This document shows, in pieces, positions 28,823 through 30,318 of a DNA stretch of 32,798 bases. This DNA is from Bacteriovoracaceae bacterium (lineage in GTDB: Bacteria; Bdellovibrionota; Bacteriovoracia; Bacteriovoracales; Bacteriovoracaceae), in contig CANHJD010000013.1 of assembly GCA_947461145.1 (NCBI GenBank), positions 1-32,798 of the forward strand, given 5' to 3'. Position 1 is the stretch's first letter. Every line of letters starts with the position of its first letter. Both the position numbers and the translations under genes were made by a program. The notes under the pieces are model-generated. The model worked only from the letters and a program-made list of their open reading frames with translations, was not told the DNA's origin and searched no databases.

Positions 28823-29299
28823 TTATCCGACTATATCTTGATAATCCATATGACTGACCTGGAAGTCTGAAGTACTCGTTTCATCTTTATTATATCCCTT
28901 GGCAAGCTTATCGATTGGCAACACTCTTCCTACTTTGGAAGAAGCGCGATTTTTATTCACTAATTGATTTTCCTGCTTTTCCTCTGCCTCCTTGCAATGA
29001 ATACAGAGATCTGCAGTTGGCCGCGCCATAAGTCGATTTGTTGTTATTTCAGATCCACAATCCTCGCACTCACCAAACGTTCCCTCTTCAATCTTTTGCA
29101 ATGATTTTTTAACCTTCTTTAAATAAAGAGCACTTCTGGCCTTTAAACGAAAGTCCATTTGATTCGCTTTTTCAGTCGAAACAATATCCACTTCGTCTCC
29201 TTCAAGACCCGCTGGATAAAGCTTCCCTTCTGAAACTTCTTCCTCTGATAAAATCTCGAGAAAGAGATTCTTGAATTTTTCGATTGTTGCCTTTTCCAT
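28823..29299 (-). CDS. DksA/TraR-family zinc-finger protein
   Basis: GTFGECEDCGSEITTNRLMARPTADLCIHC (CxxC-x17-CxxC-type finger); start at ATG 29299 after AAGGAG SD rather than track TTG 29347. Confidence 0.9.
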   Translation of the reverse strand: MEKATIEKFKNLFLEILSEEEVSEGKLYPAGLEGDEVDIVSTEKANQMDFRLKARSALYLKKVKKSLQKIEEGTFGECEDCGSEITTNRLMARPTADLCIHCKEAEEKQENQLVNKNRASSKVGRVLPIDKLAKGYNKDETSTSDFQVSHMDYQDIVG

Positions 29300-29337
29300 A
29301 CAGCTCTCCTTAATTATTTTTTCTTCCCTAAAGTTAC

Positions 29338-29612
29338 CCGGTCTCAATCCTTGATACCGGAAGCCAATCCTTGGCGAGATATAAAGGTGACATCCTGTTG
29401 TCTATTGCGATCACTCATCCTTGAGTGACCCCTTACATCTCTTGCGAAACCCATTGAGCATGAATCGTGCCAAGTCACCTTCCATTCCTTTTTAAGCAGT
29501 TACGGTTGCTTCCCATAACATCTCCTTACAGTTATGAGGGGCAGTTTGGCCGGGCCGGAGCCGAAGGGGCCCCAGCAAGGTGTCAGTTGGACCAACCCGG
29601 CCAGCAAACTGC
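29338..29612 (-). ncRNA. structured leader RNA or sRNA with multiple GGA-loop hairpins (CsrA/RsmA-site-like), upstream of the DksA-like gene
   Basis: Minus-strand hairpins: CCGGTATCAA-GGA-TTGAGACCGG (29338-29360), GCCAA-GGA-TTGGC (29363-29375), TCACTCA-AGGA-TGAGTGA (29411-29428), CATAAC-TGTAAGGAGAT-GTTATG (29514-29536), long-range AAGGTGAC/GTCACCTT (29384-29391 with 29474-29481), GC-rich hairpin 29541-29612. Confidence 0.6.
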
Positions 29613-29703
29613 GTGTAAATGATTGTAAATTCTACTATGGCCCCTAGAGTCAGAAGTCAAACTAAGCTAAAAACACTCAAATATTTTTTAGAGGAAATAA
29701 TCT

Positions 29704-30318
29704 ATGAAAAAGGTTTTATTAATCGTGAGTGCTGTAATTTCTTTGAGTTCATTTGCTCAGGAAAGAGTACTCCTGAATGCTGAAAATATTGAAGTAAATG
29801 CTCCTGAAGCCATCTTAGTTCGTACCTCAGAAACTCCTCGAGTCGTAAAGATCACCTTTAATGTTCCAATGAGTAAATCAATCTGTGAAGCTTATAGCAC
29901 ACGTTATGTTTTTGTGACTTCTGGATACCAGTGTGGCTACGATCGAAGAATGACTGGTTATACAACTAGAACGATCTGCACTCGCATGAACCCACAAAAT
30001 GGACAGTGCTTGAGAACAGAGACTCAGCGAGTTCCAGTAATATCTAATTATCCGAGAACCTGTCAGGTTCCAGAGACGTACTGCTCATCTTATGGAACTT
30101 TGACGAACCTTGAATCTGACAAAGTCAAAATCAAATTTAAAAATCTACCTGCTCTTGGCGCTACGGAAGAGGACTCATTTCTAGTGAAGGCAAAACAGAA
30201 GCGTTATGATGGAGTCAACGTCGTATACGAAATCACTCCACAGCAAACTGTGACAGATTATATCGTTTCATCCAGAGGACTTTTAGGATTTGATAGTTTT
30301 ATTGTTAGTGAGAAATAA
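29704..30318 (+). CDS. secreted Cys-containing protein, unknown
   Basis: 204 aa; signal peptide MKKVLLIVSAVISLSSFAQ; six Cys in the mature region. Confidence 0.75.
   Translation: MKKVLLIVSAVISLSSFAQERVLLNAENIEVNAPEAILVRTSETPRVVKITFNVPMSKSICEAYSTRYVFVTSGYQCGYDRRMTGYTTRTICTRMNPQNGQCLRTETQRVPVISNYPRTCQVPETYCSSYGTLTNLESDKVKIKFKNLPALGATEEDSFLVKAKQKRYDGVNVVYEITPQQTVTDYIVSSRGLLGFDSFIVSEK

Follow-up and report, generated by a model that had tools for sequence, protein, structure and literature searches.

The DNA upstream of a DksA-family gene in a Bacteriovoracaceae genome encodes a series of hairpins with GGA at the tip, and raises the question of which strand carries them, how far the element extends and what it does. 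The window, meaning the whole stretch of 32,798 nucleotides that was analysed, is on contig C13 of the genome G000, a 2.65-Mb uncultured draft that is 86% complete. The first-pass annotation had read the region as a CsrA/RsmA-type regulatory leader, and this reading is supported by conservation, by covariation and by the presence of csrA in the genome. The explanation preferred here, with a probability of roughly 0.8, is a CsrA-binding 5' leader, driven by sigma-54, that would hold translation of the DksA-like gene off until CsrA is titrated.

The gene downstream of the leader has a match to Pfam PF01258 (43.3 bits) and scores 81.9 bits with the NCBIfam dksA model TIGR02420, which is under the cut-off of 115.5. 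By these scores its product is a DksA-like relative and not a certified DksA. The best PDB relative found with phmmer is E. coli DksA (1tjl, 2.1e-16). The DxxD spacing of the coiled-coil tip and the C4 zinc finger are retained; the acidic pair of the tip (D71, D74) is present, with gDevD aligned to PDPVD of 1tjl, and A76 of DksA is replaced by V.

Going upstream from the DksA-like ATG on the minus strand, the elements are found in the order Shine-Dalgarno sequence, H3, H2, P1c, H1, P1 and sigma-54 element (Table 1). Of the six GGAs of the leader, four are in hairpin loops, one is single-stranded and one is part of the Shine-Dalgarno sequence. The leader region has neither a terminator-like nor a sigma-70-like site, and the leader runs into the DksA-like gene. 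Promoter geometry places the probable transcription start at about 29446. The structured RNA lies 5' of the ATG as annotated before, with a corrected extent of approximately 29446-29300, while the more upstream part of the element as first drawn is predicted to be untranscribed. A fourth hairpin, CATAAC...GTTATG (29514-29536), is upstream of the conserved promoter and so outside the leader. The GC-rich stem proposed around 29540-29612 is upstream of the -24 box and resolves into three dyads. A long-range pairing of AAGGTGAC with GTCACCTT had also been suggested; its AAGGTGAC arm (29481-29474) is upstream of the promoter, directly next to the -24 element, and the ACCTTTATATCTC strand pairs instead with GAGATGTAAGGG (29441-29430) in a helix supported by covariation. 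The additional GGAs pointed out in ACAGGATGT and AAAAAGGAATGGAAGG are divided, the former being part of the P1c hairpin and the latter upstream of the promoter. The near-repeats TCTATTGCGA and TCTCTTGCGA are absent from other leaders.

Table 1. Coordinates of the leader, its gene, the upstream DNA elements and the companion RNAs (window positions unless a locus or contig is given).
Feature	Position	Strand	Remark
DksA/TraR-family gene (158 aa), served by the leader	28823..29299	-	ATG at 29299
Leader RNA, ~147 nt	29300..29446	-	GGA-in-loop statistics, conservation; ends at the DksA-like ATG
Shine-Dalgarno AAGGAG, also a GGA site	29306..29311	-	AAGGAG conserved
Single-stranded GGA, ~28 nt before the ATG	29325..29327	-	recurs in genus leaders
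Structured core (covariance model R1): P1, H1, P1c, H2, H3	29338..29441	-	111.8 bits in the window
H3 CCGGTATCAA-GGA-TTGAGACCGG (GGA 29350-29348)	29338..29360	-	helices 5 and 6
H2 GCCAA-GGA-TTGGC (GGA 29370-29368)	29363..29375	-	helix 4
P1 3' arm CCTTTATATCTC	29376..29387	-	outer helix P1
P1c hairpin GACA-ACAGGA-TGTC (GGA 29395-29393)	29389..29402	-	helix 3
H1 GTCACTCA-AGGA-TGAGTGAT, NGGA tetraloop (GGA 29420-29418)	29410..29429	-	conservation and covariation
P1 5' arm GAGATGTAAGGG	29430..29441	-	12 bp with 29387-29376 CCTTTATATCTC
Sigma-54 (-24/-12) promoter TTGGCACGATTCATGCT	29457..29473	-	GG and GC about 10 nt apart; conserved place before the leader
Three GC-rich dyads	29538-29551, 29557-29573, 29579-29593	-	65-120 bp upstream of the sigma-54 promoter
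sRNA-1, stand-alone, seven GGAs	L093:1201-1410 (G000:C57:12357-12566)	+	sigma-54 promoter C57:12357
sRNA-1 intrinsic terminator	L093:1381-1409	+	ends sRNA-1
sRNA-2, GGA hairpins	L093:1501-1740 (G000:C57:12657-12896)	+	sigma-54 site C57:12657

The three minus-strand hairpins described at first (H1, H2 and H3) are present, and GGA is found in their loops beyond chance. The raw GGA count is ordinary, with 5 observed and 4.7 expected; it is the placement in loops that is unusual. Summed over the leader, the probability that a GGA is in a hairpin loop comes to 4.0, compared with 0.5 +- 0.49 in 200 dinucleotide shuffles (maximum 2.3). When 1766 segments of 148 nt from both strands of the 32.8 kb were scored, the leader came first with 4.6 (mean 0.11, sd 0.29). 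The same holds for the relatives: the sum is 65.7 for 24 leaders of the same genus (8.6 +- 2.2 in shuffles), 15.6 for six other genera (2.5 +- 1.05) and 52.1 for 25 orthologs from other genera (8.1 +- 2.5). GGA is the top trinucleotide in the hairpin loops of the genus leaders, and the number of GGAs per leader is mostly five to eight.

The covariance model R1 was made from a hand-given structure on eight close leaders, followed by re-alignment by the model. It found 17 further leaders, all in the expected position and on the expected strand, among them one leader from another genus (29.3 bits) and two weak matches (E 0.08 and 0.4), and gave no match besides the window itself when run against 40 other loci. 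In the resulting alignment 90.7% of the cells pair and 33 of the 36 pairs have a two-sided change. There are 138 compensatory cells, where shuffles give 41.6 +- 5.9 and slid controls no more than 31, figures to be read with the facts that the alignment is fitted to the structure and that the sequences are related, so that shuffles overstate independence. An unfitted MAFFT alignment of the eight sequences has six pairs with a two-sided change (2.1 +- 1.2 in shuffles). Helix P1 has such changes at all 12 pairs with 90.4% of the cells paired, helix 3 at all four pairs with 94.4% paired, and helices 5 and 6 at every pair with approximately 95% paired; in helix 4 the proportion of paired cells is 80.6%. 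The base preceding GGA in the H1 tetraloop can be A, T, C or G, while GGA itself is kept in 23/24 same-genus leaders, and the H1 sequence ACUCAAGGAUGAGU fits CARGGAUG, the core of the SELEX consensus. Folding the plain MAFFT alignment A1 with RNAalifold was set aside; it recovered only H1, because the spacing between the helices varies, together with a false pairing inside the DNA promoter.

The paired positions include 61 G-U and 26 A-C cells, an excess that fits transcription of the minus strand. The sigma-54 promoter and a conserved block that ends at the DksA start codon give the same orientation. Inverted repeats can fold on both strands, and the loops had alternatively been seen as UCCUU on the plus strand, as in an anti-Shine-Dalgarno type sRNA with C-rich loops. 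This is scarcely credible in view of the G-U and A-C counts, a fold z-score of -1.81 for the plus strand versus -2.73 for the minus strand, and the location of both the sigma-54 promoter and the Shine-Dalgarno sequence on the minus strand. Conservation could also be explained by coding, if a leader peptide or upstream frame started at an AGGATG; the ATG within AAGGATGAGTGA opens a frame of 24 codons in G000. That frame, however, meets a stop after a few codons in relatives such as G016, elsewhere the phases differ and the indels are not in triplets, and the two-sided changes preserve pairs rather than codons, all of which makes a coding origin very improbable.

BLASTn recovered the leader block in 20/26 genomes of the genus, own genome included. 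Searching by gene ortholog gave 24 same-genus leaders, each with the TTGGCA and TGCT of the sigma-54 promoter invariant. Outside the genus, 25 ortholog loci from 24 genera were obtained. The sigma-54 element is located 101-186 nt before the start codon in 24/25 of these, the exception being G027, which is without a clear site, and the loop score is at least 1 in 22/25; low scores were found in G032 (0.3), G047 (0.57) and G054 (0.6). Paralogs and DksA genes of other families had neither the sigma-54 element (0/22) nor GGA loops (0/22), and other DksA-family genes in the phylum were therefore rejected as carriers of the leader. The division into orthologs and paralogs was settled after the data had been seen, by similarity of the N-terminus and by eye, and the p-value of this comparison is only indicative. 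The stems in other genera are unrelated in sequence and still have GGA at the tips, for example GGGC-AGGA-GCCC, GACTTTTA-AGGA-TGAAAGTC, GATC-AGGAA-GATC and CCCTCA-TGGA-TGAGGG. Losses of single sites were also found: GTA in H1 (G020), GAT in P1c (G019) and an H3 without GGA (G022). By the sequences compared, the leader is conserved across the whole Bacteriovoracaceae family while its sequence changes.

The promoter and the RNAs of the same design elsewhere in the genome were overlooked by the first-pass annotation. A sigma-54 DNA-binding domain is encoded in the genome (3.5e-62), and the pattern TTGGCAYG-N5-TGCT, with one mismatch allowed, occurs at 39 sites compared with 8 for the reversed control, a number that indicates a sizeable sigma-54 regulon. 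The upstream regions of the relatives contain TGCCCC in 19/24 and TTGGCC in 17/24, where approximately one is expected. The three GC-rich dyads are candidate enhancer sites for a sigma-54 activator, that is DNA elements outside the leader RNA. Upstream dyads are also present at another sigma-54 site (L089, contig C76) that lacks a GGA-loop leader. At window positions 29620-29640, near the side of the divergent gene, there is a variant, GTAAATTCTAC, of the word AACTTACA/TGTAAGTT, which is over-represented upstream of the DksA genes (11/24) and is a possible site for a second regulator. The divergent reading frame of 204 amino acids (window 29704-30318, plus strand) begins with a signal-peptide-like segment and matches nothing in Pfam or NCBIfam; starts resembling this one are found beside the leader in several relatives.

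The CsrA homolog of the genome scores 96 bits with TIGR00202, over the cut-off, and csrA was found in 24/26 genomes of the genus. The protein has 76 amino acids (L024:1426-1656), retains the RNA-binding residues L4 and R44, and has both N55 and a C-terminal extension; among PDB entries the best match is to a CsrA homolog, 5dmb chain D. In other bacteria N55 has been proposed to mediate the binding of FliW (PMC13407953). The csrA gene lies between flagellar genes and the adjoining fliW (L024:786-1656), and FliW is present in 12/12 genus genomes tested. CsrA is probably the protein that binds the leader. Since this binding is read from sequence, the hairpins might instead be recognized by another factor (an RNase, a ribosomal protein or some other RNA-binding protein) or have a part in RNA stability. 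Such a role is quite improbable, because GGA is placed on top of many unrelated stems, in loops closed next to an A-U pair as CsrA prefers (PMC7652899), and because CsrA is nearly universal in the genus.

Leaders were also scored genome-wide at the sigma-54 pattern matches, of which 30 of the 39 sites in the own genome were read. Strongly GGA-looped RNAs follow 3/30 of these sigma-54-like sites: one site is that of the DksA leader, and the other two, in tandem on contig C57, belong to the RNAs designated sRNA-1 and sRNA-2. The 3' domain of sRNA-1, CTCANGGA...GAGCGATG...GGTTCANGGATGAACC, was used for a covariance model (R2) that matches 23/26 genus genomes; matches outside the genus are weak (E 0.002-0.008) and were left out of the counts. 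The Rfam CsrB model aligns as a whole with sRNA-1, from approximately the start to the terminator, at 19.9 bits (E 0.0021), well below the threshold, and sRNA-1 is a candidate CsrB-like sponge. In sRNA-2 the GGA hairpins are followed by a hydrophobic reading frame of 34 codons, MEMMIGVTGLMTMLIVSLALSHASFRKVYLTIRK, and then by a terminator. Several relatives of sRNA-2 are found per genome within the genus, and downstream of some sRNA-1 orthologs there is a small reading frame like this one. The words TGGCCC and TGGCAC upstream of the companion RNAs are related to those of the DksA leader, and it is plausible that the leader and its companions have an activator in common.

Hairpin sites upstream together with a site in the Shine-Dalgarno sequence make up a layout of the glgC type (PMC7652899), and CsrA repression of the DksA-like mRNA is therefore proposed; it is this layout of sites that points to repression rather than activation. 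An enhancer-dependent sigma-54 promoter would give an mRNA with a leader of ~147 nt that presents approximately four GGA hairpin loops and two GGAs in single-stranded RNA, of which one is the Shine-Dalgarno sequence. Dimers of CsrA would then bridge an upstream hairpin and the Shine-Dalgarno region and leave the mRNA untranslated. Titration of CsrA would raise translation, the titrators being the separate sigma-54-driven GGA-hairpin RNAs from elsewhere in the genome, together with FliW, and the leader itself, with 4-6 sites, would add to the titration. Because promoter, leader and companions share sigma-54, the arrangement would amount to a coherent feed-forward loop, in which one signal makes the mRNA as well as the RNAs that unlock it.

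With the same binding, the main purpose could be different: the leader, possibly after processing to a 5' fragment, would chiefly titrate CsrA, as CsrB and RsmZ do, and the DksA-like frame would ride along. The number of GGAs per leader equals the site number of a small Rsm-type RNA, and the companions, with the same promoter and hairpins, include at least one that is ended by a terminator. Between the leader and the DksA-like gene there is, however, no terminator-like site, the linkage to the DksA-like ortholog is tight in 24 other genera, and a GGA near the Shine-Dalgarno sequence, beside the hairpins, is how a translational target is laid out. A leader that is mainly a sponge is somewhat unlikely by comparison with control of the DksA-like mRNA in cis.

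The leader has likenesses to several known systems. No Rfam family reached the gathering score in the window; under permissive settings nothing usable appeared, RsmY reaching 10.5 bits versus 57 (E 4.2), and a match to another class of RNA is absent at threshold. Many GGA hairpin loops per RNA are shared with CsrB/CsrC and RsmY/RsmZ (Rfam CL00106), as is the terminator end of sRNA-1, whereas the DksA leader is an mRNA leader that lacks a terminator of its own, the promoter is of the sigma-54 and not the BarA-UvrY/GacA type, and the host has FliW. The E. coli leaders of the glgC and pgaA type likewise combine, in cis, an upstream GGA hairpin of high affinity with a GGA that is part of the Shine-Dalgarno sequence (PMC7652899). 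They differ in that here four hairpin sites are part of a conserved multi-helix domain, transcription is by sigma-54, the target is a DksA-like protein, and conservation extends over a whole family of Bdellovibrionota. In E. coli, dksA is under post-transcriptional repression by CsrA, and CsrB/C are raised by the stringent response (PMC7652899). An elaborate conserved leader is not described for CsrA control of dksA/relA in E. coli, while here the link is built into a leader found family-wide. The CsrA-FliW partner switching of B. subtilis, C. jejuni and Geobacter is similar in the position of csrA next to fliW, the C-terminal extension and N55; those systems are described without Csr sRNAs, or without characterised ones, whereas here multi-GGA RNAs exist beside FliW. 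The CrcZ/CbrB-type RNAs of Pseudomonas are sigma-54-dependent and titrate a global post-transcriptional regulator. CrcZ titrates Hfq/Crc with A-rich motifs, in contrast to the CsrA-type GGA loops of the Bacteriovoracaceae RNAs.

CsrA-binding leaders and sponges are thus already known, as is control of dksA by CsrA in E. coli. What is new is the control by sigma-54, the fixation of the leader in front of a DksA-like gene throughout the family, and the presence of FliW alongside. In the open-access literature searched, nothing was found on CsrA in Bacteriovorax or, by titles and abstracts, on a sigma-54-driven RNA that titrates CsrA; CsrA together with Bdellovibrio has a passing mention in ten papers, as judged from titles and counts. 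A network of CsrA control that has not been described before is suggested by the separate, similarly built RNAs in these genomes. That a single enhancer-activated sigma-54 programme in Bacteriovoracaceae produces both stand-alone RNAs that titrate CsrA and a CsrA-responsive mRNA encoding a DksA-like RNA-polymerase factor, beside FliW, is put at even odds.

A 2020 review describes fliW and the BarA-UvrY genes, on which Csr sRNAs depend, as anti-correlated, and leaves undecided whether any species uses FliW and sRNAs jointly on its CsrA (PMC7652899). If true, the network would be the first case of one CsrA being under the control of both RNA sponges and FliW, and the position of csrA next to fliW together with the multi-GGA sigma-54 RNAs makes joint control directly testable in a Bacteriovorax-type bacterium. 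It would also mean that a connection of CsrA and sigma-54 with a DksA-like protein has been fixed in evolution, in a group with many predators where the switch of growth state is central.
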